Shown one piece after another: positions 16,670-53,909 of a DNA stretch of 64,000 nt. A program made the position numbers and the translations under genes. The stretch spans positions 62,001 through 126,000 of the forward strand of contig NC_067128.1 in NCBI RefSeq assembly GCF_021347895.1. Direction: 5' to 3'. The number at the start of each line of letters is the position of its first letter. Position 1 is the first letter of the stretch. This DNA is from Acanthochromis polyacanthus (lineage: Eukaryota > Chordata > Actinopteri > Pomacentridae). Under the pieces are notes generated by a model. It did no database searches, was not told the origin of the DNA, and worked only from the letters and a program-made list of their open reading frames with translations.

Positions 16670-18299
<1,630 letters not shown>

Positions 18300-19342
18300 T
18301 ACGTAGGCACATGATCAGCCACCAGCCCACCCTCTCACTCATTTTCCTTTTTCAGCCTCCCACCTCTGCTTTTCCACTTCAAAGAAAGGAGACTTCTGGA
18401 ACTCTGTCCAGGTCATCTCCTTGTCCATATCCTTATCTCTGTACAAAGAAAAGACTTTTGCTGGGCAGTAGATGTACTTCCCTGCTCCTCCAGGGAAGCC
18501 AGTGTGTATGTGTGGACTGTCCGGGTCCTGCTTTAGCTCCAGTTTGCTTGTCCCTGTCGGCTAGGAGTCAGTCCTTTTTCTTTGTTGCTGTTCTCTCTCC
18601 TCCACCCTTTGTTTGTTGCCTCCAGTTCACACTGAAAGAATTCTGTTTGTGCAAAGTCTTTGAAGTCCATTTTTGCATCCGTCAGACCTTCAGCACCACA
18701 TGTTTTAAAAACCTTAGTGGAACAGTAGAAGTACCTGACCGGGCCCTGTTGGTAGAAGAAATGGACGGAAGAACCGTCACATTCATATCTGGACTTAGGC
18801 TGGCCACAGGACACTTCTTCGTCTGGGTTCTCTTCCCCGGCTGTTGCTGTGGTGGTTGCTGCTGCTGCTTGGTCATGATACTTTGAACCATTTCCTCTGT
18901 TGAGTCCTGCATTAGAGGTGTCTGAACAGGACGGGGGTTAAAACAGCAGCCGGCATGGCAACAACTGGCACGCTGCTCGTCTCACTGCCCTCTGTCAGAG
19001 AGTGCCAAAGCTGCTGCCCTTTTTCCACCTTCTCTGGCCTGGTGTTCAAAGAGGAGCTGGTGTTCAGCAGCTTGCTCAGGTCTTTCATATACTGTGTTAT
19101 GTGCAGCTTAGTGGTGGGATGGAACATGCTGTTCGGGTCCTTACAGCTGCTGTGAACCAGAGCCGCACACTCCTGGTCCACCAGCTTCAGCATGTCCTTT
19201 TGCCCGCCGTGTTTATTGAGGAGGTCGTCTATGGTTTTTTTCATGGGAGCTGGCCAGCGCTTGTGGTCGAGCACAAACACCCCCCACCAGTCCAGTGCGG
19301 GTTGTAGTTGGTGAGGACAGCAGGGGCAGAGGTGACGGAAAT
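18300..19342 (-). pseudogene. Decayed gene with two tandem cysteine modules
   Basis: Minus-strand coding sequence in at least three shifted frames. It begins after an acceptor (cttatcttctag). The N part has HLCPCCPHQLQ followed by FVLDHKRWPAPMKK. A Gln/Pro-rich linker (TKQQQQPPQQQPGKR) follows. Two repeated modules come next: CGQPKSRYE...YFYCSTKVFKT and HIHTGFPGG...YIYCPAKVFSLY, each ending in F..F..(T/S).FF. The modules look like zinc-binding repeats. I do not recognise a named gene. A Tc1 element removed its 3' part. Confidence 0.55.
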
Positions 19343-19376
19343 GTGGATCCTAGAAGATAAGAAAAGAACAATATAT

Positions 19377-20037
19377 ACAGTGCCTTGTGAAAGTATTGGG
19401 CCCCTTGAACTTTTCAACCTTTCGCCACATTTCAGGCTTCAAACATAAAGATATAAAATTTTAATTTTTTTGTCAAGAATCAACAACAATTGGGACACAA
19501 TCGTGAAGTGGAATGAAATTTATTGGATATTTTAAACTTTTTTAACAAATAAAAACCTGAAAAGTGGGGCGTGCAATATTATTGGGCCCCTTTACTTTCA
19601 GTGCAGCAAACTCACTCCAGAAGTTCAGTGAGGATCTCTGAATGATCCAATGTTGTCCTAAATGACTGATGATGATAAATAGAATCCACCTGTGTGTAAT
19701 CAAGTCTCCGTATAAATGCACCTGCTCTGTGATAGTCTCAGGGTTCTGTTTAAAGTGCAGAGAGCATCATGAAGACCAAGGAACACACCAGGCAGGTCTC
19801 AGATACTGTTGTGGAGAAGTTTAAAGCCGGATTTGGATACAAAAAGATTTCCCAAGCTTTAAACATCTCAAGGAGCACTGTGCAAGCAATCATATTGAAA
19901 TGGAAGGAGTATCAGACCACTGCAGATCGACCAAGACCCGGCCGTCCCTCTAAACTTTCACCTGGAACAAGGAGAAGACCGATCAGAGATGCAGCCAAGA
20001 GGCCCATGATCACTCTGGATGAACTGCAGAGATCTAA
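19377..20037 (+). mobile_element. Second Tc1 family, 5' half only
   Basis: Begins with cagtgccttgtgaaagtatt and has inverted-repeat-type sequence (attgggcccctt, twice). Then a transposase start at 19769 encodes the first helix-turn-helix (YKKISQALNISRSTVQAII) and a GRPSKLSPG hook. It is cut at about 20037 by element A and its other half is not in the window. Confidence 0.82.
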
Positions 20038-21805
20038 GGGACCGCGGTCCCCAGGCGGAGTTAGAACCTTTTTTTAAATTTTATTTTTGAAACAACTATT
20101 TACATTTTTTGGGTGGTCTAAATGAACAAAACACAAATGAACAGAAGCACAGAGACAACAAATACATTAAAAAAAGGCTGCTGAGGAAAATAACATTAAA
20201 CAGAGCATTTAAAAGCAAAATTCCACAAAATCATGAACATTCAACAGAACCTCAAAACAAATATGAATCTCAGCAGGATGGTGGTCATCTCTGATCCCAA
20301 CACTCTGCCTCTCGGTGTGCGTGTCTTTAAAACACCGAGCTCTCTGGTTGTCCTCCACTGATGAGATGGCTTCGATGTTCAGCTTCGTCTTCATGGTGAC
20401 GGTGCTGCATACAGTATAACCACAGGTCTGAGCTGTTGCACATGAAGCTCAGCAGGATTTCTCGGGCCGCCCTCCACTCTGCTGAGATGGTTTAGATGCT
20501 CAGCAGAGTCTTCATCGTGAGGATGGGGACATCCAAGGACAACGTCGGCGACGCGTTCGGTCTTCTGGGAAACCCGATCGTCTGAAAAGTAAAAAGACAA
20601 AAACAAAGTTAAGAAAAAGCAAGAGACTGTGCAGGACTTTCACTAAATGATCAGGCAGTACATGACCTGTGATCAGTTTTTCCAAAGTAGAGGAACTTTC
20701 ACCATGTGTGCTGAAACCTCCACACCTCAGTAGTGTTGGCCCGCTGCCGATCAAAGTCATTAAACTGATTGATTGAAATGTTTATTTTGAATAAAACAAA
20801 TAAAAAACAATTCAGAAATTAAACTGATTACAAAACATATTATTCGAAAAGGAGTAAGTTGAAGTGAAACTTGTAGAAACTTACCCCCTTTACAATCTTA
20901 TATTCAAACTGCCTTTGACAAGATGATTGGACACGCCGAATTAATGCCGAATTGTTTAAAAAACATGTATTTTGCTAACAAAAGTGGAGATGGACGTCCA
21001 TGTGGCGTAAAAAGCGATAATCCTAAAAACGCTATTTTTTGAACGGGGTTTGGCACAGTTTCCGCTACCGTTCGCCGCGGTGGAGAAAACTCATTAAACT
21101 GGCTTTCAGCAGATCGTGGGACACGCCAAAATACTGCACAAATGTCTAAAAAGCATACATTGAGCTAGCGAATGTGTGCATTCGCTCTAAAAAGTGCTAA
21201 CAATTCAAAAACACACACCTTTCGAACAAGTCGCCGCTAGCCTTCGCCGCGGCGGAGAAAACTCATTAAACTGGCTTTCAGCAGATCGTGGGACACGCCA
21301 AAATACTGCGCAACTGTCTAAAAAGCATACATTGAGCTAGCAAATGTGTTCATTCGCTCTAAAAAGTGCTAATAATTCAAAAACACTCACCTCTCGGACC
21401 AGCTGCGTTGTTCAAACGGCTCTGGCTGCTTGGTTCAAACGGCTGCGTCGTTCAAACTTCTTCTCCTTTCACGGCGGTTGGCATCCGGTGTATTACCGCC
21501 GCCTACCGGTCCGGAGTGTGGACCACACAGTACACTTACGGACGTTTCTGGGATTAAACAGCCGAGTGTAGAGGTGCTTTTCTTGTGCTGAAGCTGTCTC
21601 CATGACTAGTGTACACCCGTTTCTATTAAAAGCACTTCTTTGGTGTCCAGCTGCTTGGACTAAACCGCTGTTTCCTGTCCCTGTAGATTGGGTCTCCTTA
21701 AATATACATCGCTTACAGTCATTTTCCATCCGCTGGGATGGCCGAGCAGTCTAAGGTGCTGTGTTGGTGTTGCAGTGAATGCTGGTTCAAATCTCACCTT
21801 TGACA
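20038..21805. mobile_element. Element A: short copy of an unclassified element
   Basis: The left end is a 14-base perfect palindrome, GGGACCGCGGTCCC, followed by ccaggcggagttagaacc. Bases 20038-20120 match the left end of element B (22565-22648), and 20121-20214 match B at 28382-28474, so about 5.7 kb including B's gene is missing. The right end carries a tRNA-Leu-like sequence preceded by about 150 bases resembling B at 30290-30420. Interpretation: internal-deletion, non-autonomous derivative of B. The superfamily is unknown. Confidence 0.6.
21074..21417. repeat. 172-bp tandem duplication
   Basis: Two direct copies share gagaaaactcattaaactgg (at 21083 and 21255), ggctttcagcagatcgtggg and aaagcatacattgagctagc. 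Inside element A. Confidence 0.85.
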
Positions 21806-21806
21806 G
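21734..21806 (+). pseudogene. tRNA-Leu-like sequence at right side of element A
   Basis: gatggccgagcagtctaagg is the A-box/D-arm of a class II tRNA-Leu, and ctggttcaaatctcacc is the B-box. The anticodon arm and acceptor stem are too changed to assign an anticodon or a stable fold. Confidence 0.6.
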
Positions 21807-21809
21807 AAT

Positions 21810-22277
21810 TTTTTTTTTTTAAATTTTAGAATAATAATAACAGTCTAATAGTCATGTGCAAAGTCAAGTACTTTTACTTGTCATCCGCTATGTTCCCCAA
21901 AGCATGTGTTATGGACTTAAAATGTGTGTGTGTGCGCGCCATATGACAGAGCAGCTGTAATTTAAGTTCATAACTCTGGAATGCTGACAGGTAAAGACCT
22001 GAAATTTTTTCTGTGTGTCTCTTGGAGCTCTATCTTCCTGCCTGCATCGGGTCCGACGGCACTTTCCATGTACAAGTTGCTGAAGTGAATAAAAAAAAAA
22101 AAAACTTTAATTTGCTCAAAAATGGTGTTTGGAGTCTGATTTCTGGTCTTTATGTCTGCATAACTTTGGACAGGAAGGTCACAGGAGGATGGTTCACATG
22201 TCTACGGACGCGTCTGGACGAGAGGAATACGTGGATATGTGAACGGTGCTTGTGTGACCTCTGCGGGCTGAGATGCG
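21810..22277. other. Unassigned stretch
   Basis: Begins with a T-rich run and contains no recognised gene. Not similar to what follows the tRNA-Leu-like sequence in element B. Confidence 0.4.
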
Positions 22278-22517
22278 GGCCAAAGAAACTGTCAGGCTCT
22301 TCAGCACACATCACATCATGATGCAGGCCAAAGAGACACGTCAGGCTCTTCAGCACACATCACATCATGATGCAGGCCAAAGAAACTGTCAGGCTCTTCA
22401 GCACACATCACATCATGATGCAGGCCAAAGAAACTGTCAGGCTCTTCAGCACACATCACATCATGATGCAGGCCAAAGAGACACGTCAGGCTCTTCGGCA
22501 CACATCACTTCATGCCC
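22278..22517. repeat. 48/49-bp minisatellite, five copies
   Basis: Units begin ggccaaaga and contain caggctcttcagcacacatc. Two unit types alternate in the order A, B, A, A, B: type A has gaaactgtc (48 bp), type B has gagacacgtc (49 bp). Open frames across it are repeat artefacts. Confidence 0.9.
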
Positions 22518-22529
22518 CATTGACAGGTT

Positions 22530-22564
22530 TCCCCTCCTCCTTTATCCGGGCTTGGGACCGGCAA
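22530..22564 (-). mobile_element. Fragment of RTE LINE 5' end
   Basis: tttatccgggcttgggaccg is the reverse complement of the RTE 5' region at about 7783-7802. It forms the left flank of element B, so B appears inserted next to an old RTE fragment. Confidence 0.6.
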
Positions 22565-22699
22565 GGGACTGCGGTCCCCAGGCGGAGTTGGAACCTTTTT
22601 TTGTATTTTATTTTGATTTTTCAAACAACTATTTACATTTTTTTGGTGGGCTAAGTATTTACAATATTTACAAAATTAACAGCACACGGTCATCCACAT

Positions 22700-23489
22700 T
22701 TACTGTCGCTTTAGCAAACGCTTTCTCTTTTCCTTAAAGGCCCCCTGCTGTCTGTAAGGTATGTTGGCCTCCTGGCACCGCCTAATATATAAGCGGTATC
22801 CCTCTTCATTTGTCAGGTTTTCTGAAATGACACTTTCGAGAATTGCCACCTCTCTTGTGTCCCATTTTGTGTTTTTCAGGTATGTTGGCATGTGACGGAT
22901 CTTCACCTCTTGCAGCTGTTGTCCCTCCACATCGTCTGTCTCCTCCAGTCCTTCCTCCTGCTGTTCCTCAGGCGATGGGGGTCTTTTGAGAGCTCGTCTC
23001 TGCTGCTGCTGCTGACCAGGGCCGGCTTGACTCACACTCTCCAGCTTGAAAGGGATGGATGGGTGCAACCTCATGACTTTTAGTCTGTTTATACCAGACA
23101 TTTGGAAGGGCCCCAAAATCTCCAGCTGGCGGAGGGTAACCTGACTCAGGCTCATGTCCTGCTGCAACCTATCCATTTGCCTGTAATCGACATACATGTT
23201 CAGTTGCAACATCGCCACACAAGTCACATACGCGCAGGTCCTCACCAACTCGCTCTGATCCAACTGTTTGCCCTGGAGTTTTCAGGGTCGGCTCCATCCA
23301 GGGCAGTTTGCGCCTCTCCATTAGGGGTTTCAGTGTCGTCCTGTAACTGTTTTTGTTTTCGATGTAGGCCATGACCTCTCGGCCCGTCTCTGCACCGATG
23401 GTCTCCAGAGACTTTTCAGCAGCGCTCCGCAGGATTTGTACAAGCGCTTTGCCGTCCCATTGAGCAGTCACGTGCTTCGTGGCATCGTA
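22700..23489 (-). pseudogene. Element B protein, C-terminal part
   Basis: Two overlapping frames meet near 23260, where one base is gained or lost: AQWDGKALVQILRSAAEKSL in the first, then ELVRTCAYVTCVAMLQLNMY, PGQQQQQRRALKRPPSPEEQ and a C-terminal basic tail. A stop at 22700 lies 120 bases from the left end of the element. Confidence 0.5.
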
Positions 23490-25970
23490 CTTTTTTTTTT
23501 TCTTTTTTTTTTTTTCTTTTTTTCTTTTTTTGTCTGCATTTATTCTCATTGTTTAACTCCATGAAAGGGGTGTCAACACTTTATGAGATTAATGCATATT
23601 TTAGTCTTGCAGCCAAATATCTTATTATTTGGTGCATGCGTGTGACCATCACCAGCCCTCCCTGAAAGCTAAGCTGACACTTTTTATTACATTACCCTGT
23701 TTAAGAGCCAGGGAGGGCAGTGCTACACCTCAGTGGTGATGTGAGGGGAAACAAAGGGGTGGACAGGACGAGAGGGGATGGACAGGGACAGGGTCTAGCA
23801 AGCAATGCTATTACATCTGAAGAATATCAGGTGTTGTGCTATTCCCAACTAATAATTACCCATCAATAAGACAAAAAAGCAAACACATACACAAGAGAAC
23901 AGAAAACCAAACAAACAATAAATAAATAAATAAATGAAAGAATAATTAGCCAGACAGTACTAAACACCATAGTTGTGGGTGTCATGTTAGTATAGAGTGG
24001 AATAGGCCAGATGATACTAGAGGAAGATACTAGAGAAAAGGAGAGAGGGTTTAGTTTGAGATTAGACTCTGGAGAGAGTCTCAGCACATTCCGGCGGGTC
24101 CCATCACTGCTCAACAGCGGAACTCGACAGGAGCTGGTGGGACCTGAGCAAACATGCACATGCAAGTGTGAAAGACCCCGAAGCCCAGAACAGCCATCAC
24201 AGCAGTGCAGTGCCAAGCCGACAGGGCACCCCCCCACAGGCCGAGGAGCCACGGGGCAGCGCCCCCAGAGAGCAACCGGGGCCACCATGTACCACACGGA
24301 CCCCGAAGACAAGAGGGCGAAGCTACCGACACCCCCAGCACGCCGGAACCGGCCCAGGCAGCCCGGGGCAAGCGGACCCACCCGCCACCCAAACCCCAAC
24401 CCCGCCCGCCCCAGCCCCCACCAAACCCCCACACCCCACCACCCCACCCACCCACACCCCACCCACACCCCACCCCCAGGGGGGGCCGACGGCCCCAAGC
24501 AGCCGGGAAGCCAGACACAGGGGCAGAGCGCCCCGCCGAAGGGACGGCAACCAGCCCAACACCGGGGCAGGCCGCCACCGGAGGCCGGCCGGAGGGAACC
24601 GGAGCCGGGACCCAATGCGAGTCCAGAGGGCAAAAATGGACAGAGCAGTGGGGCCCGGCAACGCCAATGGGGGGGCACCCCGCATACCCACCCGCACCAG
24701 CCCCCGGGTGAGCACAGCACACCCAAGGCCCCCACATCCCGCGACACGAACCAACCCCCCCACCAGGATAGAGGCACCACACACAACCAGCCCGCGCCAA
24801 AGCCACAGCACCCACCAGGACAGCCAATCCAGATCCCGCAGCCCAGCAAGAGCCACCGCACCAGCCGGGACCAGCAGGACACGCAGGAGAACCCCCACAG
24901 GCCCCGGACCCCCGGCCCCGGGGACCCCCAGCCACAGCGACACGGATGATGGTGCACCCCGCCGCCCCATAGCCGTAAAGCCATATGGGGGCCAGATCCC
25001 ACCAGAGAGGCCATAACGGTGAAACCCACCCGTTATTCTCCTATTAATATGTCTCCCGATCCCTAACGGGAAACATTATCCCAGCACCGTGGTAGTGTAA
25101 CCCTGGGTGTCATGTGGTGCATTAAAAGTGGGGAGGCTGGGGGGGCGTTAGCCAACCCAGACCTAGCCCCAAGGTGAGTGTGTGTGGTGCATTAAAAAAA
25201 AAGATTGGAGAGCAGGGGAGGCAGGCAAGAGGGTGATGAGGGGGAGACAGGGCCGTATAGCCCTGCCACCCGCCCCACCACAGTGCCCATCGTTCCCACC
25301 CCCACCTGCCCTCGGGGCCCTAAATGTTGTGTCCCTATATGTGCCTAAAGGTTGCTATTTACAGTGAGGTGTGAAAAATGTGAGGTGCACAATCAGAGGC
25401 ATTCTGGTGTGGATCTGGCCCAAGAGGACAAAGCAGTGGGGGAGGCAGGTAGCAAGACCACCGGTACTGACGCAGAGGGCCCCCAGAGCCAAGAGGCAAG
25501 GGACCGGGGAGGGCCCACACGAACCAACTGGCCCAGCCGGCACAAGAACCCCCCGGGAGCTGCAGATCAGAGCAGCGCCCCGGCAGGCACCGTAGCCCCA
25601 ACACAGGTCAGCCACATGCGGCACCCCACCCCGAAGGGGGGACCAGGCCACGCCACAAGGAAGCGAGGGCCACAAGCCGCCACACCCACCCAGGAGCCGG
25701 CACGACAAGGACGCAGGGCGCCCACCCCGCAGCGCCCCCGAGACCCCACCCACCCCACCACACCCCAGGACAGCACCAGGCCCGGACGGAGGCCCCCAGC
25801 CAGCAGAAACTGGACTCCAGTGGGGGCACACAGGCCAGGATGAAGGCCTGTGCCCAGGTGGGCCAGAGCCACCCCCCCAGAGAGAACACCCAGCCCCCGC
25901 GCCAGACCACCCGCCCGCAGAGGGCCTCCAGGGTGTCGGAGAATGTAAAGATTGGCTCGATTCGAATATG
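23490..25970 (-). mobile_element. L1 LINE 3' end with poly(A), GC-rich 3' UTR
   Basis: On the minus strand it ends in an A-rich tail (23490-23540 on the plus strand is poly-T with C) preceded by an AATAAA. Most of it (24060-25880) is extremely G-rich on this strand, like the 3' region at 37490-38060 that follows recognisable L1 coding sequence. 5'-truncated; no ORF2 sequence is present. The left border is sharp at the poly-A tail; the right border near 25970 is inferred from where the host frame resumes. No clear target duplication. Confidence 0.6.
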
Positions 25971-27619
25971 CTCTTTGGCATTCTTTGTCCAGTATGTCAG
26001 CGGTGGGTGGCTGTTGCCATCAGCGGCAGCTGAACCGTGGTGTTCCAGGCAGAGGAAGCCACGACCCGACGTGACGGACCGATCGACACCGGCGCTTCCG
26101 GGGCCCAAATTTGTAGACCAGATATTGTCCTGTGGACATTTGGGCTTCCCGAAAAAGAATTTCTCGAGTGCCAACTCCAGCTGAAAACTTCTCCAGCTCG
26201 CGTCAAATCCACCGTGGCCTCGAGTGTTGCTTAAAAGACCAAGCAATTCTTGGCACAAGTAGGCACTGACTTCTGTTATTGCGGCAGAAAAGGGTTTCTC
26301 CGCATCCCTGTCGTTATGTATGGGCACAAACATCGGGTACTCTTGGAAGAGGGTCTTAACATTTTCAGCGTCGAAGAACGGCCGCGCTTCCAGAGAAGAC
26401 GTGGTGTGGTCCCGAGGTGTCAGTTTGCATACAATTTCAATCCGACATTTTGTTTCGGCAGCCAGTTTAGACACGTTGTCCTGGAAGCAATCCAGGTATT
26501 TATTTGAAGCGGACATCAGTTTCTTTGTCTGAGGGTGTAACAGTCCGCACGATGTCACAAAACCGCTGACCGGATGGAGTCCACATTCCACGGGATGCCT
26601 GTGAGGAGACTCTGCGTATAGCTGGATGAAGGTGAGAGCCTGTGGGTAGGCTGCCACGGATCTGAGTTCTGGAGTAATGTCTGGGGCACGGCAATCCAGA
26701 TTGCTTTGAAAATTGTAGGCCTCGCTAAAAGATAACGCAGGAAACAGTGTGCCATACCGGTTGGTCAGTTTCTGCAAACCAGCTGTTGCCCAGAACAGGT
26801 AGGTGTCATGGCTGGACATGTCGAGGCTCATGGCTGCGTGCACAGTGAAGTCGACTATATGATCGCAGGCAAAGTGCTGATCCAGTAGTACGGGCTCTTG
26901 TTGCTTCTGTCCAAATCTACATGCAAACACAAACGGGTTCAAACATTCAGGAACATGGGACCGGAGGCTTTCCAAAGCGACGTCCAGCTGCGCTAAAAGG
27001 AACGGCTGGTCGGCGTGCACCACGTCCCAAAAAGAGACGTCCCTCAAGCTATTCTTCATCAACGTGGGACGTGCTCTGTCTCTGCGGTCGAGTTGTTGCA
27101 ACTGTGTTTCAAAAGCCTCTTTCAAAAGGCGAAAGCACCTGTCTCTGCCCGTCCACTGTTTACAGGTAAAAAAATCTGCCCTTCTCAGGTTAAACGGAGG
27201 AAGAAATGTCACGACGAGTTCGTAACCGTGATCGTGGCTCAGTACCAAGCCCTTTGCCGAGCGGAACACGTCCAGGGCGTCTGCCGACATTTCGTGAATT
27301 CGCAGATGCTTTTTGAGCAAGTGAAAGACTGGCTTGCAGTTTCTTTCGAGCTTCAAGTGAAGCCTACTGATGCGGTACAAAACACCCTCCAACTTGTCCA
27401 GCTGCACCACCAGTCCGTCGATGTCGTAGCTGTCTCGTAAAAGAGCCAGCTGCTCGTCGTCGCTGGCGTTGCAGCTGAAAATAGGGATGTAGTTGTCCGC
27501 TTGAGTCAAAAATTCTGCCACGCTGGAGGCTCGTGCCATCGCCTCCGCGAAATGGGTTGCATTTTGCCTCCCGGTACTGTACAGGCCGAGGGTGTCCTGG
27601 TACATTTCCATGTCGTCTT
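25970..27619 (-). CDS. Element B protein, main N-terminal exon
   Basis: An uninterrupted open frame of about 550 codons after the acceptor at 27620-27621. No frameshift or stop is present before the inserted L1 sequence, which is unusual for an old repeat and suggests either youth or selection. Visible blocks include LLRDSYDIDGLVVQLDKLEG, VTFLPPFNLRRADFF, FVFACRFGQKQQEPVLL and YPMFVPIHNDRDAEKPF. No membrane segment is visible. Function unknown. Confidence 0.6.
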
Positions 27620-27719
27620 CTAAAATGAAAAGAAAGAATAAGAGAAAATCCATATCAACTAACAACTATTCTCTTCAAAAACAGAACGAAGAAAAAACCC
27701 AAATAATCAAAACCCAAAA

Positions 27720-27721
<2 letters not shown>

Positions 27722-27756
<35 letters not shown>
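27722..27756. repeat. Poly-A tract
   Basis: About 34 consecutive A within an intron of the element B gene; on the coding strand it is a long T run shortly upstream of the acceptor. Confidence 0.9.
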
Positions 27757-27758
<2 letters not shown>

Positions 27759-27950
27759 CACTCCAAAAAATAATAATGTTTTCCCTATGCGCAACGTTCC
27801 AACCGCCGCTATGGTCTTTCTCATGGCAGGCACACAAGAAAGATTCAAAACTCCTTAGAAATTTACCTTCCATTGGCAGAGTCATTTCTGAGCAGTTTCT
27901 CCTTCGGCTGTTTGAGGGACAGATAGCCAGCAGGGTCTGCTCCTCTATCG

Positions 27951-28920
27951 GCTGTAAAATAAGAAACAGGATTTTAATCTTTCTTAACGCAGCCAGAACA
28001 GACTTAGATGACTGTAACTCCATTTAGATGGCTGCCCACAGCACACGGCTCTCCACCCAGAGCACGGAGACAATAGTTCACACACCTAATGCAGCGGAAA
28101 AAAAACACTCGCCACCATTTTGCATTCAGTCCTGAGCTCTAAGGCAACACCCTGGAAAACTAATTTGGACCTGCAGCTGGGTTTTTATCAAAAATACATT
28201 CTGACCCCAAACTGGGAGGCTGTAAAATAAAACAAAACAGGATTTTAATCTTTAACGCAGCCAGAACAGACTTCCAATGAACCGAACAGAACCACCCCGG
28301 ACAACACTGGTTTCATTACATACTCTGCACTGTAGTCACGGTGCAAATCGGTGTTTTAAAACATCCCACAATATCGAAATGAAATGAACAACACGCAAAT
28401 TCACAGAAGCAGAGAGAAAACAAATCATTAAAAACAGGCTGCTGATGAAAAAGAAGTAAACAGAGCATTTAAAAGGGTTAGCTCCAGTCAAATTTTAGCC
28501 ATTTACAGACAAACAGGAGCCAAAGACTGGCTGTAGATACAAAAGTGTGAATCTTATGACAGAAACTTGGCAGAAAGCAACGTCAAAAGGCAGTTGTAAC
28601 ATCCAAAACAAATGAAACTAGATAACTAGAGCTGCATACCTGTACTTGGAGATCTGGGAATACTTTATCGGAAAAGCCTCGCTGTCGTCAGGTCACCTTA
28701 CCAGTCAGAGCAAAGTCTGCTAGAGAGATGAGCACTGTAGGAGTGGAAAGAAGAGGTGCTGCGGCTGGAGGAGGGGGACAATAGTTCACACCCAGTGCAG
28801 CGGAAAAAAACACTCACCACTAATTTGCATTCAGTCCTGAGCTCTAAAGCAACACCCTTGAAAACAAAGTTGGACCTGCAGCTGGGATTTTATCAAAAAT
28901 ACATTCTGATCCCAAAGTAG
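27951..28920. repeat. Duplicated blocks upstream of the element B gene
   Basis: About 145 bases at 28069-28216 recur at 28777-28918 (cagtcctgagctctaa, ggacctgcagctggg, atcaaaaatacattctga). A second pair, 27951-28008 and 28218-28273, shares aggattttaatctt and aacgcagccagaacagactt, and the acceptor-like tattttacag on the minus strand. They may be 5' regulatory or subterminal repeats of the element. Confidence 0.75.
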
Positions 28921-30420
28921 GACACCGAAAAAAATAAATAAATAAAAAAATACGATAAAAAAAAAATAGACCCCACTAGGAGGACGAACGGTCCGTGAGA
29001 GATTTTTATGTTGGCTGCAGTTAAGCAGTTATTTCTTGTGTGCTTTTGTTTTAGACAGCATTTGGAGGTGAATAAAAAATCTCGACAGTCACAATACAAA
29101 CTGTACAACGGACTATAAAAACTTAAAAATGCTCCCAAAAAGGACAATAAACACCTTAAGAAAAATTAAATGTTCAATGTTCAAATGTTTTGTTCACGTC
29201 ATGTCGTCAAATGATCCATTTATGATCGATGAAACCTAAAGATATATCAATTAGTGTTTCACAGTCATGTTTTTAGAGTTTATTGTATCACTTTTCAGAG
29301 TGTACTGACTACTACTGTCAGTGTACCGAGATGAGATTTCATAAAGGCATTATGTCATTGACAGAAAACACACTTGAGATTGTTAGCTGCAACTCTGATG
29401 GAGAAACACAATTTAAAATATTACACAGACTCCACTTTACACCTCTGCTGAGAAGCAAGCTAGGTCTAAGCTCTCCATATTGTGGTAAATGTGACTCTGA
29501 AATGGGTGCGTACGCACACGCGTTCTGGAAAATGTGTCGGCATACAAAAATACGTGACTGATGTTAAAAAAGAAATAGAGTGACTTGTTGGATACGAGTT
29601 GGAGCTTTCAACCTTTCAGTCTCTTCCGGCTGCGAAAGCGGACAACGCCAGAGACGACGACCACTCCGAATCGGTGGAAACCCTCCTTTACGTAGCGAGA
29701 AAAACAATTTTAAATTTCTGGATTTCCACTCTGACAATTGAACACTGGTACACAGAAGTACTAAGGATACTTCCTTTGAAAGGCTAACATACATTTTGCA
29801 TGACAACTCTGAAGGGTTTATGGACATTCGGTTACCTGTCCTAAACAAAACTACATTCCCACCCACCGATCTGGCTCATTTATGTCGAAGCTGGACATTT
29901 CTCTGTAATTCAAACTGTTGTTATAATCACATGACACTTTGTAGTGGTGGCTGGACTAAACTCACTGTACTGGAACATACTGTCAACCCCTCTTTTTTTA
30001 TTTATTGATTTATTTTTGCATCTCTGCTGCTATTTAGTTTTATTTTTAGCGACTCAGTTTTGGTTTGTTTGTTCTTTGTTAATGAAAAAAAGAGAACACA
30101 TTCTTCACCTGAACTGTATGTACTGTATTGTGCAAACTCAAATAAAAAGCATTTAAAAAAAATAAAATAAATAAAGGCAGTTTGTCAGCCAGATCCATTT
30201 CATTAATGTCTGATAAATTTGTGCATGATGTTTTTGATTCAGTGTTAGTCCGTTTTGAGCTGTATTTCTGCTCTTTATGTGTCTCTCAAACCCAGTTATT
30301 TGGTGTTTTACCGTAACCTGTTCAGCTACAGTGGTTTGGATCAAACCGCCGTTCTCCCGTCCTGACTCGCCTGTAAATGCCACAACTTTGAATATAAATC
30401 TCTTGCAGCTGTATGACAAC
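28921..30420. other. Non-coding right part of element B
   Basis: No supported exon. The last 130 bases resemble element A before its tRNA-Leu-like sequence. Confidence 0.4.
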
Positions 30421-30422
30421 AG

Positions 30423-30492
30423 TCGGGATGGCCGAGCGGTCTAAGGCGCTGCGTTTGTGTTCCAGTGGACCCTGGTTCGAATCTCACCTTTT
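30423..30492 (+). pseudogene. tRNA-Leu-like sequence at right side of element B
   Basis: gatggccgagcggtctaagg and gcgctgcgtt match the D arm and anticodon stem of tRNA-Leu, and ctggttcgaatctcacc matches the T arm. The 3' acceptor strand is replaced by a T run, which can also serve as a pol III terminator. Not a functional tRNA as it stands. Confidence 0.65.
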
Positions 30493-30677
30493 TTCACCCC
30501 CCTCCTCCCTTTTACCCAGCATGCTTAGCGGCGCTGCCCATTCACGCACAACAAAGGGAAGGTGTGAAAAGTAACACGACACAGCACACGCCCACAAACC
30601 CCTGTAGCACCGTGAGTGAGGTTAACATTGCCAGAATAGACCCTGGGCTTAGGAACAAGCAGTCACACATTGCTCAG

Positions 30678-32416
30678 ATGGATCGATCGTTGGTGAGTAT
30701 GACTTTCACACCTTTCTGTCCTCTCTCTCTCTCCCCAAAAACCTCTATAGGCGGTATCTCCCTGGGGCTGTGCGTTGCATTTATTTGGGAGCACAGGGGA
30801 TACTTTAAAATAGGCCGGGGCAGGGTGGGTAGCTTTGTGGGTAGTATGGGAAGTTTGGCCCCCATGGCCTTTCTTCTCTTAGCTTGGGTTGTAGCATGGG
30901 TTCCTGGAGGGACCTGGGGAGCAGCCCTGTGCTGCTTACCCAGACTCCCTCCTACCCCGGTGGAGCCAGGAAAGCGACAGCATAGCTGTTGATAGTACTG
31001 GCTTCCCGGGGAGGAACTCGGGCCCGGGAGAAGCGTTCCCTTTGGGTCCCAGGAGGCCAGCAGCCCAGCGTTGCTCCGCCTGGGGATCCCCACTGGGGAT
31101 CCAGTTTCTCTGGGTCTTGTCCACAGCTTTCAAATGGAGCTGGTCCCACCTCTCTACAACTGCACTTTGAGGATGAAAATGTCTGCCTCACCCAGTTTGC
31201 TCTCTCTGATCTTTGTTTTTTCTCCTACAGGCTGGATTCATTTTATTTTTTTAAATTTTTAAAGCTGCTTTTAACTTAGAGGTAAGTGTTTTCTGTCTTG
31301 AACCCTGAACATAAATCATTAGTCCTAGCTGGATTTCTTCTAAGCATCTATGTCTGTCTAGGAGTAATTAAAAATGAAAAGAATTAAAACTGGGCCAATA
31401 TGATAGCCTCACTTCAGAAATTGTTATTAAATCTCATTACATCGGTCTATATGTCACAGGAATAATCACACAACACTGTTGTACCGGCCTTTTTCTCTTA
31501 TTGCAGCAAATGGAGGACGAAATGGACGAAAGACTGATAACGGTGGAGGCCAGGACGGAGGCTCTACAGTCGGTCTTCGAAACCATGTTTCGCTCCTTGA
31601 GAGACAGCACCCAGAAAGACATGGAAGAGGTCCGAAGAAGGGTAGAGGACTTTGGCGAGAGACTCGTCGCCCTGGAAAACGGGGACCGGCGAAATAGCGA
31701 AAAGGTCAACGACCACAGACGTGACCTGGAGTTGCTCCAGGAGGATGTGAGGTCACGGCGCGGGGGAGAGCCGGCGGCACCGAACGTCTCTGAGGCGGAG
31801 GGACCCGGCGCTTCCTCCTCCTCGGACGAGGAGCGACCCGGCGCCTCCTCTCCCAAGAAGTCTCGTCTCTCGCTCCGCGCCTCCTCGCCGCCAATGTTTC
31901 CGACCTGGAGGACGACATCGACGAGTAAGAGGCCAGGCTGGATTACAGGGCAAACATGAAGTTGTCCCCCAGGCAGATGGCCTTCGTGAACCTCCAGCTC
32001 GACAGAATGAAAATAAAAAGTAATATATATTTTACCGCTTATTCCACAGCTTATACAGGGGTTTTGCTATGTATATGACAGTGGTTTGCATTGAATATTA
32101 AATCACGCACTGTCATTTAGTTTTGTAATACGTTTCTCACAGCCTGTCACAGTATTACCTGGACACTAAATTGAGAAATAAATTTGTTTCTTTCATTGTC
32201 TTTTCAGGCTGCGACGATCTGGAGCAGAAGGCTCTGAGGATCATCAGGCAGGGGGTCCGTCGCATGTTGTGGCCGCGTGGTTGGACTCCGCCGAACGTTA
32301 AAGTGGACTTCCTCTCCTACATGAAGGAGAGGATAAAAAATCACGTCCGCCAACAGAGGCGGGAATCCCAGAAGTTTGCCCTGCAGGAGCAAATCCGGAA
32401 GAACCTTCAGGACTAA
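30678..32416 (+). pseudogene. Coiled-coil protein gene, three exons, degraded
   Basis: Exon 1 holds ATG at 30678 and ends at 30692 before gtgagt. Exon 2 is 31507-32019 (acceptor ttattgcag, donor gtaata). Exon 3 is 32208-32416 (acceptor gtcttttcag). All joins are in phase. The N half is a coiled coil (ITVEARTEALQS, FRSLRDSTQKDMEEVRRR) followed by an acidic Ser/Glu-rich linker. Exon 3 is basic (RIIRQGVRRMLWPRGW, KNHVRQQRRESQKFALQEQI) and could bind nucleic acid. One frameshift near 31867 and a TAA at 31926 break it. No family recognised. It begins 190 bases after the tRNA-Leu-like sequence and points away from the element B gene. Confidence 0.5.
32208..32416 (+). CDS. Exon 3 of the coiled-coil gene
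   Basis: Open to its stop with a good acceptor. Encodes about 69 residues, strongly basic, with CDDLEQKALRIIRQGVRR at the start. Confidence 0.5.
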
Positions 32417-32419
32417 AAA

Positions 32420-32925
32420 GACTTTTAACTATCCCTAACTGGGTATCGGTTTGCTGTGGTTTTTTGTAATAGAAGTGGTGTGTTATTTTTATGTGTGCCA
32501 AAAAATATATTTCATATTTGAAAGATGAAGAAGTGTCCTGATTCATTGATGTTAATATGAAGGGTTTTGAGCTTGGGGTTAAGTCTTAAATGGTCAAACA
32601 CATATACATATTTAGGAAAACTAATTGCAAGTTTGAAATGTATCAAGGCTATAATTACACACTTCCATGGTTTTTATTGTCAAAACATTTATTTTAAACT
32701 TTGTCCATTTAGGGTAAAACATTGTAATTTTCCAACTTTAAAACTTCCATTATTTTTAACTTTTTAAACATAGTACAGGCAATTATGTAGCCACCGTCTT
32801 TCAAGTGTTCCACACTTATTATAAAAACTTTGAAAATGCCCAACAATTACCGATGGTTCACATTCGCATGTACCGAGTACCGGAAACAAGTCTCTACACG
32901 ATGAGCTGACTAACACGTATGCACA
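32420..32925. other. No gene seen
   Basis: AT-rich sequence after the coiled-coil gene with no motif I can support. Confidence 0.5.
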
Positions 32926-32926
32926 A

Positions 32927-33460
32927 GTCAAGTCACATTTATTTATATAGCACATTTCATACGACAAGCGCAGACTCAATGTGCTTAAGAACAAATAATT
33001 AAGCAACATGAGAGGGTAGCAATAAAACAAACATTTTAACAAGGTATTAAGATCTAATGTAAAGATAAAAACAACATTAATTCCACAATAAAATGCTGTC
33101 ACCCAGCCAATCATTTCAAACCTAGTCAAAGGCTTGTGCCAAAATACACATTTTTATTCTGCTTTTAAAAGAAGACACTGTTGTAGCAGACCTTAGTTCT
33201 TGAGGTAGAGAATTCCAGAGAGTGGGACCGTAGTGACTGAAAGCACCATGAGCAGATTTTGAATTGATTCTTGGTATGATAAGAAGACTTTTACTTGATG
33301 ATCTAAGAGATCTGTCCGGTATGTATTCAGTGAGCATGTCAACAACGTAGGAAGGAGCTAAACTATTCATAGATTTATAAACAATAAGAAGCATTTTTAA
33401 AATTGATTCTTTGTTTAACTGGAAGCCAGTGAAGAGAGGATAGAACAGGAGTGATGTGTT
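32927..33460 (-). mobile_element. LINE 3' fragment, L2/Rex1 type
   Basis: The 3' end has cacatttatttatatagcac. A minus-strand frame at 33122-33463 encodes the C terminus of a LINE polyprotein (YKSMNSLAPSYVVDMLTEYI, GPTLWNSLPQELRSA). 5' truncated. Different family from the LINE at 60128. Confidence 0.78.
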
Positions 33461-33464
33461 CATA

Positions 33465-34250
33465 CCCGTTAGTTCACAAACAAACGTATGTACAGAAAAA
33501 TGGTCCTACTCCTGTTCCATCTGTAACATCTTCCCTCTGGAGCTTTTACACTAACAGCATCCTATTGGCAATGGAAGCTGAGGAAACAGTTGTGAGCATT
33601 TTGACCAGTGACAATGCTAAGCCTCACATTGCACTTCTGACACATGACAGGGGTCTGTCAATCCTGCGTCGACCTTTCACTGACTGCTACTTCCCTCATC
33701 TGAATCTGATGAACCATCAGGTGGCAAAATTACAGATGTCGCCACTGTTTTTCTTGCAGTGTAAAACATGCCCACAGAAATTACCTGTAAATTAGTAAAC
33801 CTCTGTTGAATTAATCAGTAATACACATTTAATTGTAATATAATGAGTAATAAATATGTTACAGCTTTATATGATTGACTATCTACAGAGTATAGTCCTC
33901 AAAACACAAGTATATGTGGGAGTGATTTAGTGTTTAGGAGCACGTTTCAGGCCATTTGGAGTCGATTGGTAGCGGTTTGTAGTGAAGTTTTTTGAAAAGT
34001 TGTGTGAACTGTAGGTGGTACTAGGATTCGGTCAGAACCCAAAATTTGGGTTAGTCCCAATCCTGTGGATGGGTGCGTGGGCGTTTCCTGCCCCGTCTAA
34101 CCTCCGTCCATTTAATATTTATTGCTGTTCATTTTATTTATCCTTTTAAAAAAAACAAAAAAACAACAACCAACAAAAAATGCTTCAAAAATTGAAAGGT
34201 AGTCCAAAAAGTAAAATTCTGTTTTTAAACCGATAGTCTGCACATTTTGC
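33465..34250. other. No gene seen
   Basis: A 114-codon open frame at 33451-33795 has no recognisable domain, and its start overlaps the LINE fragment end. Not supported as a gene. Confidence 0.45.
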
Positions 34251-34259
34251 TTTTCTTGA

Positions 34260-34560
34260 GAAACTAGCCACAGCCTCATCTACTCATATTTAACTTACAG
34301 CTCTAATTTTTCCACACTACTTCCAGGCTCACCATTCCCCTCAGCCATCTCATCTTCATGATGACTGTCAGACTTTGCTTCATAATCAGCATTTAGAATT
34401 TGCTTGGTCAGCATCTCATTACCACAGCTTCTTTGATCATTTCTTTATTACTTCCTGCTGTCACTACTATTTCAAAATAGCAAGCAATCTCCACCAACTC
34501 TGCCTTCTTACAGGCTTTGAGCACTTCCCAAGTGAGGTTTTCAAATAAACGCCTCCACCG
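34260..34560 (-). pseudogene. Remnant of a retroelement gag N terminus
   Basis: Minus-strand sequence just downstream of the primer site reads a short helix-rich block (LKACKKAELVEIACYFEI) like the SAP-like start of some fish LTR-element Gag proteins, then an acidic tail. Interrupted by stops and one frame change. No further retroelement genes follow. Confidence 0.4.
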
Positions 34561-34661
34561 TGGACTCAATTACTTGTGCAGTAACTTTTTTTTTTTCAGA
34601 AAAAAACCAACCAACTGAAAACCCCCTGAAAAAAACAGGATCAGGATTTTTGCTGATTCAT

Positions 34662-34677
34662 CTCAGACGAGCCCCCA
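34662..34677 (-). promoter_or_regulatory. Retroelement primer binding site, tRNA-Pro type
   Basis: The minus strand reads TGGGGGCTCGTCTGAG, two bases from the LTR border (TGTTAC at 34680 on the plus strand). This closely matches the classical tRNA-Pro primer site. Confidence 0.65.
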
Positions 34678-35025
34678 ATTGTTACATTTTTGCCACCCCT
34701 GGTCTCAGATAAATTCAAAAAACTAAGGTTATTTGTGGGTGAAATGAACAAAAAACTGCATAAACAAACAAAAAATGGGGTCTGTGGTCTAAAAGGGGAT
34801 AGGGTATGGTTAAATACCACTAAATCAACCAAAAGTGGTAGATAAAAAACAAAAACTGAAACCCCTCAAAAGAAAATAACATTCCACAAAACAAAAAGAA
34901 AGAACTGCTGAGTTCTGGGCATTAATGACACAAAGACACTTTGGTTTCTGAAAAGAAGGCTGACTGATGGTGTCAAACCTTCCAGGTTGTCTACCCACAC
35001 CCAACTGAGCATCTGGGAGATCCCT

Positions 35026-35041
35026 CCTTATATCCCCGCCC
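35026..35041 (-). promoter_or_regulatory. TATA box with upstream GC box in LTR
   Basis: Minus strand GGGCGGGGATATAAGG. Transcription would run left through the LTR toward the primer site. Confidence 0.5.
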
Positions 35042-35130
35042 AGCTGATTGGCAACAACGCACAGCCGAGCTCAATCACACAGGTGCAGCAGATTGAGCCT
35101 GATCTCTGAGTCAGGCTGTGACCTTTCTAA

Positions 35131-35743
35131 GGGGCCGTTTATACGAGGACCATCCTAACAGAAAACGCAAAAGTGGCGTCTTGTCATTTCACGTTTAGAC
35201 GAGCGGTTTTGAAGGAAATCTGCGTATATACGGTGACTCCATAGTGTGCGGAATTCGATTGGATATGCATGCCAGGCAGCTAGGTGGCGCTGTGATAAAA
35301 CTCTGCCATGTCTACACGCATGCTTACTGTCTCCCTTTTCGGATCTCCGCCGCGGTAAATGTTCATGAATGGAATCTGTACAGATTCTGTACGTTTGTTG
35401 GTACGACTCCTGTAGTGTACATAGAGCTGCCAGAGTTGCTTGAAGGTAGGAAGGATGGAAATAATCACACATCTTTGTTTACGTCCTTGTACCGGCCGGC
35501 AAACCAAAGCACGTATGTGACGTAATCGCGTACGCGACGTGGTCAGATCTCGGCAAAGTTTTGCGTTTTGCTGTTTAGACGGAAACGTAACGGCGGAGCG
35601 TTTTCTACTTTTCCACTCTGGAGGCCGGTTTCAAATTTTTGCGTTTTCAAGCCCCCAAAACGCCGTCCTCGTATAAACGGTAGGGTGTTTTGTTGAAATA
35701 TTTTACCGTTTTCACCTGCAAGCGTCCTCGTGTAAACGGCCCC
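35131..35743. mobile_element. PIF/Harbinger-type MITE, 613 bp
   Basis: The ends GGGGCCGTTTATACGAGGAC and GTCCTCGTGTAAACGGCCCC are inverted repeats, flanked by TAA on both sides (35128-35130 and 35744-35746). A three-base TWA duplication and GGGCC ends are typical of this superfamily. An internal second copy of the terminal motif lies near 35662. No transposase is encoded. Confidence 0.85.
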
Positions 35744-35746
35744 TAA

Positions 35747-37260
35747 GCCCATAACTGATTGAAAAATAATTTTATTTGAAGCCAAAACTTAAGGTTTAAA
35801 ATTAACCACAACTCATGGAGAAAAAAACTGATGGAAGGAAAGAGTTCGTAGTGAAGGCAAAAAGCATTGGTGGGTGTAGAAGCTAATCTAAAGCAAAAGA
35901 ATAAACCTAATAATAAGTCAAAAATAAAAGGGAAAATTATGCCAAAGAGGTGTGGAATCAAAGCCAAAAGCCAATTGCTGAAATGAAAAATAATTTAATG
36001 AAATCGGGCAATTCTTCCATGGGGTATGAAAGATGGAAAGCCAAAGGTGGATGCACAAATCAAAAATATGTTTAAAAATCAATCAAACAAAAGTTTGACA
36101 CAATTGGAAAAACAGAAATTAAAGCCCTAGAACTAATGCACAATTATGTATAAGAAACACTTACCGTAAATTATATACTTATCTGAATCCGGACCAGGGA
36201 GAAAACCTGAAAAAAAAAAAAAAACCTGAAAAAAACAAACACAAAATTCAAATGCGGAAAACCTGCAAAAAAAGAGAAAAAAAACAGTTCGTATGAAGGC
36301 AAAAAGTACAAAACCAAATTAGGAACAATTGGAAACATAAAACAGCAGAGACATGAAAATTTGAACGAAGGAAAGGGGGCGGAGACACAGGGGTATATAA
36401 AGAAGGACAGCCACAGGAAGCTCATTTCAGGATAAATTCTGAAGGGGAAGCAGCTCAGAAGGGAACGGGTGACAAATACCTGATGAAGGCATAATAGAGG
36501 CCAAAACATAACGCTATGGGCACCCAGGAAAGGCCTATTATAGGATGATAACATTAAACAGGTAAAATATAGGGTTTTATTTTATTAAACATAAAAGAAT
36601 GTATATTAAATAAAAAAATTAAGAAAAACCATTAATTCATGTATACAAAGCCTAAAGAGCAAACTGATGAGGGCAAGTAGAGCCTGGGTGGGGTGCCCCT
36701 CAGAGGGATGGCCCGTGCACCTCCAGCCCCTCAGGGAGCTTTATAGCTTCCAGGGGGCCGGTGCCCTCTGTAATGGAGGGCATTCCCCTACACCTAACCC
36801 TTTAATTAATATATAACAAAGGCGAAATCAGCATAAAAACCCAAGTAAGGGATTAAATATAGCTGAAATAAAGAATCCATAGATGGGTAGAAATTCATAT
36901 GCTTAAAAGAGTAATTTAAAAATCTGAAAACGGGTTTAACCCGTTAAACTTCAGTGTACCGCCGGTGGTACACCTACTAATTTGCATAGGAATTTAAAGA
37001 ATGTCCGACGGCTGCAAACACGATTTTTTTTTTTTGTCTGCTAGTCCGCTCAAAAATGACACCAACCACTCATGGTGTCACTACTTAAGCTTCATGCATT
37101 TTTTTTCTTCTTTGTGACTTTGACCATCACCTGCCCTCATGGCAAATTAACCTATCATGTTTATTTCAAGCTGTTTCCTACATTATGCCATTGAGGGCTG
37201 TGCACACCCAAGTGAAACATAAAACAAACACAGGACAGACAGAAAGGTGAGGCATAGACA
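35747..37260. other. Unassigned repeat-rich stretch
   Basis: Contains a plus-strand TATA-like gtatataaag (about 36393), a block cctgatgaaggcataataga that resembles a motif seen in some LINE or Penelope-like fish repeats, and at about 36956 TTAA followed by cccgttaaacttcagtg, which could be a piggyBac end without a visible partner. No gene supported. Confidence 0.35.
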
Positions 37261-37639
37261 GTGTTCTAAGAGAAAAGGTGCATTTTATTTGTTTGTGCTC
37301 TTTAATTCACACCTTAAAACCAGTTACAAATCTAAGACCCTTCACAAACACCAGATACGACAAAATCCCAACTGGATCAATCATGAAGATGTCAGGAGGC
37401 CACAAGAAGGATAGATAGAGCAGAGTGAGATCCACAGACACTAACCCAGCAACCTCCACTGACTCAGCAACCGGAGGAACACACTCTATTGAGTTTTGGT
37501 AGGTGCCGGTGTGGTGGGTCTGGCATGCATGAAAACCTCCACCAAAAGGAGGGAGCTGTCCCCTCCAGCCCAAGGAGGTCCACACAGCCCCCCCGCAGGA
37601 GCCACCAAGCGGAGACCCAGCCCAGGAGCCCGGAGTGAC

Positions 37640-37660
37640 CCCCCCCCCCCCCCCCCCCCG
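37640..37660. repeat. Poly-C tract
   Basis: A homopolymer of about 20 C in the GC-rich L1 3' region; its length is likely unreliable. Confidence 0.85.
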
Positions 37661-38389
37661 ACACAGCCAGAACCCCAAGGCCTGCGCAGCAGAACGGGTC
37701 ATAGCACACCCCCACGGCGGTCCACAGCCCCACTTCCCCCACCCATGGCCACCCCCATGAAGAAAACACGACAGGTGGCCCAGCCTGACCGGGCGACCCA
37801 GACGACTGCCGGGCCGCCACCCACGACATTTTTAGTCGCAAATGGCGACCCGGCGGACACCCAAACCAGGCGCCCGACCGACGCCCCCCCATGGATGCAG
37901 CCACCCAGCACGACGCCCCTGCGGCGACCTGGCGCCCGCCCAAACAGAGTGCTGCCCGGGGAACAAGGCCAACCACGTCGAGCCACAGGGGACAGCACCT
38001 GGAAGATTAGCCAAGCATGCAGTAACACCAAGCTAGCCATTCATGCATATAGACAGAGGATCCTGGGGAGTTGTTGACTGTAAGTTGTCGTCGATACGGC
38101 CCGCTCGATCCTGCTGACAGCGACTGGGTTCCTAACTGAAGAAATCATTAGTTACACAATGCCAAAGTACATAAGCAGCAACATATATTGGGGTGATGTG
38201 GTGGCTCTCGCTAACAGGCAGAGTCAGGTTACCAGGTTTAAGTTAAGGGAGTTAACATACGGAGACCATGTTTGTATAAAATTTAACAACTGATTTTTAT
38301 TTGAAGCAGAGATTTTCTCCATTGAAATGTGATTTTTTAGGAGGTTGAACCAGAGGTTAATGTTCAGAGATTGCTTATTTTTCCAGGTG

Positions 38390-38690
38390 TGACGGCCCTC
38401 TACTGGTGCTAGTTGGCCTCTACTACTGTTCATGTGTGTTAAGGTGGACTGGAGGAGGCGCTGGTGGCGTTCTGGGGACCTGGCAACACTTCCGGCGGGC
38501 CTCTTTAAAAGCCGGCTTCCGCTGTGTTTCAGTGCGGGCGAGCGGCAGGGAGAGCGGCAAGGACGTGTTGGTTCTCTCCGTCGGCTCCTGGATGGAGTCG
38601 ACCGCCCGGGTTGCTTTCCATCCTTCGCCACACATACGTCATGCTACGCCGTTTTTCTTTATTTAGATTATGTGTTCATGTTCATTTTTA
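38390..38690 (+). mobile_element. Insert in L1, possible solo LTR
   Basis: About 300 bases of non-L1 sequence start with tgtgacggccctctactgg and include cctctttaaaagccggc, a TATA-like promoter context. It separates two contiguous L1 ORF2 pieces. The terminal CA and target duplication were not identified, so the class is tentative. Confidence 0.35.
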
Positions 38691-38966
38691 ACTTGTAGAT
38701 AATGTAAAAAGTTCCCATTTTTTATTTTGTATTTTTGAAGCAAGTTTGTATATGACATGAACGTATTATCTGAGAAGAGGTGGTGGAGATGTGTGATTCC
38801 ATTCTGCTCCCAAACAGCTAAATGGAGCGGCTGATTGTTAACTTGAAAATCAGGGTTGTACCAAATGGGAGAAAACTTACAGGGCTCCAATTTAGAGTTT
38901 GTAATTTCTAATGCCTTCCACCAAGCGGTCAAGGTGGAGGAAATCATTGGGTTTTTAAAACAGTTA

Positions 38967-40603
<1,637 letters not shown>

Positions 40604-40650
<47 letters not shown>
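40604..40650. repeat. TA microsatellite
   Basis: About 20 TA units directly beside the Tc1 right end. Confidence 0.9.
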
Positions 40651-40651
<1 letters not shown>

Positions 40652-40654
40652 GCA

Positions 40655-46840: not shown

Positions 46841-46849
46841 AGTGACACA

Positions 46850-47245: not shown

Positions 47246-47260
47246 TTTTTTGTGACACAG

Positions 47261-53905: not shown

Positions 53906-53909
53906 TTAT

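Follow-up and report, generated by a model that had tools for sequence, protein, structure and literature searches.

A broken, probable mobile-element gene beside a twister ribozyme in Acanthochromis polyacanthus, with a possible Rep_trans-like nickase domain

Results

We analyzed a 64,000-nucleotide stretch of the Acanthochromis polyacanthus genome (contig NC_067128.1, positions 62,001 to 126,000; the window), which holds two related elements, A on the left and B on the right, with the features listed in Table 1. BLASTN within the window recovered three blocks that an earlier note on this DNA had described in both elements: a left block (20036-20121 against 22563-22654, 86%, E 6e-25), a second block (20120-20215 against 28382-28475, 86%, E 2e-24), and a right block (21698-21801 against 30388-30491, 78%, E 2e-17). 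These are the only blocks common to A and B at E<=1e-3, and the proposal that A is simply B minus 5.7 kb was not confirmed. Part of A's interior (20500-20603) matched instead, at 91% in a genome search, a region of contig C18 that adjoins a divergent member of the gene family. The notion that gene-less relatives rejoin at one right-hand point held up: both A and a copy on C18, where sequence like 22417-22682 is directly followed by sequence like 28382-31661, rejoin at 28382.

Table 1. Features of elements A and B, in window coordinates
Feature	Position	Strand	Remarks
Twister 5' half in A	20037..20066	-	broken off after the hairpin, followed by sequence taken to be Tc1-like
48-bp repeats (22272-22514) and adjoining sequence	21942..22514		joined to the twister on contig C18 too
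Type-P1 twister ribozyme, left side of B	22528..22594	-	Rfam RF03160, 64.1 bits, E 6.6e-13
Left block of B	22564..22654	-	3' side of gene, AATAAA-like signals; common to A 20037-20121
C-terminal gene remnant, frameshifted	22700..23490	-	two overlapping frames; matched by eye to relatives' C-termini
GC-rich insertion, poly(A)-like end	23491..25920		interrupts the gene; limits by eye
Main exon, left limit approximate	25920..27619	-	open frame; encodes the middle of the protein and its N-terminal domain, the latter possibly Rep_trans-like
Predicted exon, probable start codon	27867..27951	-	AG/GT borders; spliced reading MTLPMEEDDMEMYQDT...
Block 2 of B	28382..28475	-	common to A 20120-20215; right-hand rejoining point of gene-less copies
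Presumed tRNA-Leu-like stretch	30388..30491 (A 21698-21801)	+	uninterrupted; T run next in B

The gene in B is broken and has one predicted intron; by eye, we estimate that roughly 95 codons were lost along with the GC-rich insertion. Its main exon is 32-39% identical to 7 proteins, and a structure model of 27611-26226 reached a pLDDT of 88. Divergent copies lie on contigs C18, C10, C12, and C6 (31-39% identity), and relatives occur in other animals. Pattern searches for relatives of the protein yielded 90 stretches in viral and 67 in prokaryote genome contigs, none of which was confirmed, while PDB sequence searches returned nothing relevant (best E 0.016-0.15). The earlier description of the gene family as unclassified was supported. 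In the explanation that we favor, with an even chance for the whole of it, what B holds is the defunct copy of a mobile-element gene of animals that has not been described before.

The palindrome previously taken for a transposon terminus proved to be a hairpin inside a twister ribozyme, which in B extends to 22528. The match in B covers the full RF03160 model (positions 1-68), with the conserved core and pairing and one marked non-standard pair, and its score lies below the gathering threshold of 67.2 bits; the 3' half by itself scores 41.2 bits. The C18 twister, with two non-standard model pairs, reaches 51.3 bits, likewise under gathering, and A's half by itself gives no Rfam twister match. 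A and B run in parallel up to GTCCCTT at the hairpin, after which A passes into what is presumably Tc1-like sequence. We had considered a Helitron-like end here, given that, past the hairpin, A and B diverge from one another at a single shared base, yet B runs into a full twister that it has in common with C18, so that such an end is not needed. A twister-bearing repeat of the same genome starts at the junction position, and at 9 of 11 places the DNA upstream of it differs; copies that begin at the cut site of the twister are what one would expect if RNA were trimmed by the ribozyme and then copied. The twister most likely represents the 5' end of an RTE-like repeat, and this repeat would have become attached to the unit before the divergence of A, B, and the C18 copy. 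Alternatively, the twister could belong to the gene-bearing unit and trim the 3' end of its transcript: the junction is common to A, B, and C18, AATAAA-like signals adjoin it, and by eye P1 (GGUU/AACC) and P2 (CUCC/GGAG) are able to pair across it in B. We regard this as rather unlikely, since the repeat's start here behind other upstream DNA accounts for the junction with no need to involve the gene, and the non-standard pairs of the C18 twister also speak against it. On the right flank of B, a possible further twister remnant is a borderline case: its score of 26 was reached in 5 of 2000 dinucleotide shuffles and by 3 of the 3170 segments of the window, and the twister at 7734 accounts for two of these three.

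At the right side, the end placed at 30490 was not upheld. A genome search with 30330-30540 found 19 places including B, and at 4 of the 18 others (the C4 duplicate, C8, C18:35475182, and C4:14.9 Mb (72%)) the whole query is covered, so that homology runs past 30491; matches end at 30491 in 3 of the 18 (A, A's C4 duplicate, and C18:35460713), and the remaining 11 are shorter, about 34-68 bases inside the part that we take to be tRNA-Leu-like. This stretch (30388-30491) was not called a tRNA by ARAGORN, nor by Rfam at E<=1. An AAAGGT-like repeat, seen by eye near both sides, might be a target duplication but was not adopted as one; no convincing target-site duplication was found. A likeness of B's left end to the flanks of A and B was discarded, the observed score being reached by chance 85, 240, 9, and 85 times in four plain-shuffle tests of 300 shuffles each. 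In viral contigs, an 18-base left-end pattern had 0 matches.

These observations also fit a reading in which no mobile element has these ends, and in which A, B, and the other loci arose by segmental duplication of DNA that carries one old gene copy together with ordinary repeats (the twister-bearing repeat, a tRNA-Leu pseudogene, and Tc1). The A and B region recurs on contig C4 at about 99% over 18001-34000, a copy that therefore carries no independent information on the ends; the left end is present at three loci and their C4 duplicates in an own-genome search; and homology on C8 and C18 continues beyond 30490. By contrast, the gene-bearing part is missing from A and from C18, in both of which the sequence resumes at 28382, and the divergent copies and the relatives in other animals look like a mobile family. 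We place the duplication reading just short of an even chance, and it can be true alongside the explanation favored for the gene.

The intact protein, of about 915 residues, is probably a fusion of a Rep_trans-like nickase domain, a cyclin-fold-like region (TFIIB/Brf-like), and a C-terminal HTH-like domain; its predicted N-terminal half is possibly similar to bacterial replication proteins that nick DNA, the fold family that we infer. The Rep_trans family PF02486 was not on the list of Pfam families matched at E<=1 by 20 members, whereas a Rep piece of Vibrio phage Vf33 scored E 9.3e-29 with the same library. In the 47-member alignment, the acidic residue of motif N' is present as DxDG in 37 of the 37 rows with letters there, on strand 1 (59-71 in the model). 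In place of RxD (motif I) we found [ST]xH (45/45), located on long strand five in the model as against strand 6, and in place of T/SxY/ExG (motif II) NxQxN (45/45, 44/46, and 43/46). The tyrosine of motif III (YxKxxE) is invariant (47/47; strand 326-333 in the model), its lysine absent, and RxE of motif IV is also invariant (47/47; following strand, 389-397 in the model), the preceding W/L not being conserved. Counting strands of at least 5 residues in both models, the motif strands are 1, 5, 8, 9, and 10, as compared to 1, 6, 9, 10, and 11 in RepSTK1.

Two other enzyme classes were weighed. Archaeo-eukaryotic primases carry motifs I-III of the form DxD, SxH, and hD, and the invariant DxDG, [ST]xH, and D301 follow that order, so that the gene might encode a primase-like polymerase of a self-replicating element; we consider this very improbable. 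It leaves the invariant Y327 and R386xE388 unexplained, it was put behind because the RepSTK1 match explained more invariant residues, and no primase is among the structural matches listed, the first of the structural comparisons listing no HUH or DDE enzyme either, which excludes nothing. The conserved histidine columns (99, 253, 332, and 341) contain no HxH pair of the HUH type. In the second class, the gene would encode a DDE transposase (RNase H fold) of the Dada, hAT, or MULE kind, and the element would be a cut-and-paste DNA transposon. A DxxH-like motif stands 28 residues after D301 (D in 43/47, H in 47/47) and leaves some probability to this reading; the invariant E474/E478 follow D301 by 173-177 residues, comparable to the 176 residues between D635, which is followed by DxxH, and E811 in Dada-U6 (PMC3706591). 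On the other side, 4 of 47 members, among them the window's own copy, have T or E where DxxH should begin with D; no conserved strand-borne first D lies at the usual distance (D198 is in a helix of the model); and no RNase H-type transposase or integrase was among the Foldseek and VIA matches listed for the N-terminal domain, which excludes nothing. Cysteines of the CCCC and CCHC zinc fingers of Dada are not conserved, with cysteine in at least 60% of rows at two columns only (745 and 888; columns with at least 30 letters), and the lack of a convincing target-site duplication, which in Dada measures 6-7 bp, may likewise count against a DDE enzyme. Dada inserts within small RNA genes, whereas the tRNA-Leu-like stretch is unsplit and stands on one side only. 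We judge a DDE enzyme unlikely, and Dada, suggested earlier as one candidate, was not supported as the family.

Discussion

As a whole, the best explanation, to which we give about one chance in two, is a dead mobile-element gene encoding a Rep_trans-like nickase, with the palindrome being a twister hairpin and not a terminus. By analogy with Rep_trans enzymes, from which we infer the chemistry and the mode of movement, the metal-dependent tyrosine nickase domain would nick one DNA strand near a hairpin and remain on the 5' end via Y327 (P0010 numbering), the HTH-like domain would bind DNA, and the unit would move as single-stranded or rolling-circle DNA. Two kinds of rolling-circle nickases are distinguished, HUH and Rep_trans. 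It is conceivable, though we incline against it, that animals carry a further kind of rolling-circle-like transposon, whose mover combines a tyrosine nickase of the Rep_trans type with TFIIB-like and HTH-like domains. If so, the family, being from animals and bearing its active-site residues in the same order on its strands, would extend Rep_trans to eukaryotes, placing its chemistry in all three domains of life, and would define an animal mobile-element group for which we found no name.

Among known systems, Dada resembles the present family in its fish hosts, in some sequence link to tRNA-Leu, in its introns, and in its internally deleted derivatives. Helitrons and Replitrons, the HUH rolling-circle transposons, would be the functional analogue in eukaryotes; unlike these, the present family has no conserved HxH pair, and no helicase family was in the Pfam listing (20 members, E<=1). 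Twisters are announced as conserved at the 5' ends of RTE retrotransposons in PMC7761336, and the ribozyme here likewise has the twister core, with copies beginning where the cut is made; it differs in abutting another gene unit, at a junction common to three loci.

Rep-Arvir (PF25227), the archaeal virus initiators, are distant Rep_trans relatives known by structure rather than by sequence; the spacings of E25-D207-Y283 are 182 and 76, against 193 and 74 here, the tyrosine-to-glutamate spacing is 20 against 61, and a MarR-like wHTH is present, unlike in the present family. Of 179 Rep_trans relatives from IMG/VR, the 80 kept were Vibrio phage loci 99-100% identical and useless as a profile; we therefore ran hhalign on single sequences, which gave no profile match with one Rep-Arvir member. 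The replication frame of Xanthomonas phage Cf1c, tried as a Rep_trans yardstick, appeared HUH-like by eye and was dropped. Rep_trans enzymes are apparently confined to bacteria, with a related archaeal family added in 2026, according to PMC13107129. Relative to Rep_trans (PF02486; RepSTK1, RepD of the pT181 family, and NicK), the present family shows no match at the sequence level and comes from animals; motif I is preceded by one fewer long strand and carries H in place of D, motif III lacks its lysine, and the protein has long insertions as well as additional cyclin-like and HTH-like parts. The likeness lies in the predicted many-stranded sheet, a candidate for the TBP-like antiparallel sheet of Rep_trans, in the order of the motifs, and, in the models, in an aspartate on strand 1 with the tyrosine and RxE on late strands.

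Shared blocks and gene-less copies

BLASTN inside the window bore out the earlier note's claim that B, the long copy with a broken gene, and A, the shorter copy without it, share three blocks (E 2e-17 to 6e-25; see the table). Searching the genome, apparently a fish's to judge by its repeats (957 Mb, 81 contigs; the window is C16:62001-126000), we found that C4:3669498-3685869 duplicates window 18001-34000 at about 99% in three pieces, and that contig C18 joins window sequence 22417-22682 straight to 28382-31661, with 31788-33124 coming next. This C18 copy lacks B's gene and rejoins on the right at the point where A does, confirming that B has gene-less relatives. On C8, positions 38991-55305 hold window 28768-31671 and 31917-40614 at 76-99% in changed order, with 31917-32743 matched twice.

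The tRNA-Leu-like stretch, previously taken as the right side of the family, is real and uninterrupted, but it is no settled terminus because right-end matches both stop at and pass 30491: the right-end query hit 19 places in the genome and, besides B itself, four matches extend past 30491, three end there and 11 are shorter, lying in the tRNA-Leu-like part. Elsewhere in the window, seven tRNA-Lys (TTT) genes lie on both strands within 9 kb (5182-14123), and we take the frames at 44214-46840 and 53910-57715 to resemble, respectively, a large KDZ/Plavaka-type transposase and retroelement gag plus protease.

Blocks common to A and B, and exons of B's gene
Feature	A	B	Strand	Basis
Left block	20036-20121	22563-22654		BLASTN in window
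Block 2	20120-20215	28382-28475		BLASTN in window
Right block	21698-21801	30388-30491		BLASTN in window
Predicted 85-bp exon		27951-27867	minus	AG/GT borders
Main exon		from 27619	minus	AG/GT borders

A twister ribozyme at the left end

The palindrome, once read as the element's left terminus, proved by Rfam match to be the hairpin of a type-P1 twister ribozyme at 22594-22528 on the minus strand, covering 68/68 model positions at 64.1 bits (E 6.6e-13), slightly below the gathering score of 67.2. The twister half outside the element as first drawn scores 41.2 bits alone, and the shared left end therefore contributes about 23 bits. A carries the same twister 5' half and breaks off right after the hairpin, where a presumably Tc1-like sequence starts; the gene-less C18 copy keeps a complete twister (51.3 bits), with 48-bp repeats beyond it.

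Collecting left-end copies (query 22500-22720), as had been proposed, gave 16 places, five being B and A, the C4 duplicate of each, and C18; the other 11 match over only 32 bases, which belong to the 3' half of the twister. For nine of these 11, the twister-bearing repeat starts at AACTCCGCC, presumably the twister's cut position, and the preceding DNA differs by eye; one of the remaining two starts about 3 bases later and the other is a variant. A second twister in the window (7734-7812, 54.6 bits, Rfam) stands at the start of frames (7734-10960) that we take to resemble an RTE endonuclease and reverse transcriptase. Our interpretation is that in A, B and C18 alike the left end marks where a unit was joined to the 5' start of such a twister-bearing repeat. 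The 11 repeats would be RTE-like, an assignment resting on the 7734 copy and on an excerpt of PMC7761336, which reports conserved twisters at RTE retrotransposon 5' ends. Alternatively, the ribozyme may serve the gene unit itself, as P1 and P2 are able to pair across the unit-twister junction in B.

The gene and its relatives

B's gene frame is on the minus strand, and joining the two exons yields a start like those of its relatives. The gene is interrupted at about 23.49-25.92 kb, where GC-rich sequence has inserted and roughly 95 codons are gone by eye, and the C-terminal remnant bears a frameshift. Three protein searches, two of which scored best-sharing candidates only, returned 7, 14 and 44 related proteins (at least 49 distinct), those with organism names coming from fish, sea urchin and molluscs; within its own genome, B's protein matched nine places, two being B and its duplicate. 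The earlier note could not place the gene in a known superfamily, and this agrees with a Pfam scan of 20 members, in which no family appeared in more than two (best E 0.0016). A DDE transposase is unlikely but kept as a reading, because D301, E474/E478 and a DxxH-like motif are spaced much as in the transposon Dada.

On C18, some 270 bp from a divergent family member and on its 3' side, lies a near-perfect hairpin of 100 bp (35468777-35468678; -94 kcal/mol for a 141-base stretch with RNA parameters). The DNA immediately past this hairpin is similar to A's interior at 20500-20603. By eye, no like hairpin was seen at the sister gene on C10. The divergent gene and the B-like copy are flanked by direct repeats that are at least 1.2 kb long and 94% identical (C18:35466801-35467992 and 35478808-35480000, about 12 kb apart).

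Comparison with Rep_trans nickases

We compared the predicted N-domain with Rep_trans (PF02486), the bacterial rolling-circle tyrosine nickases, using the motif list in an excerpt of PMC5714925. Several results count against a Rep_trans reading: the family has H where Rep_trans has D in motif I, differs in its motif II residues, lacks the K of motif III and has a Y-to-RxE spacing of 61 residues, and when profiles were compared, neither a Rep_trans protein from a phage nor a Rep-Arvir (archaeal virus) protein, one of each, gave a match (0.07% and 0.15%). The protein is not described as a PF02486 member, and it is possibly Rep_trans-like in mode of action, in which case movement would involve nicking at a hairpin, a 5' phosphotyrosine intermediate and single-strand transfer. 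No eukaryotic Rep_trans transposon was found in the literature searched, and Repbase may hold a named but uncharacterised consensus. In an excerpt of PMC13107129, Rep_trans enzymes are apparently confined to bacteria, with a related archaeal family then added; by comparison with that source, an origin located downstream of a gene of this kind might well look like the C18 hairpin.
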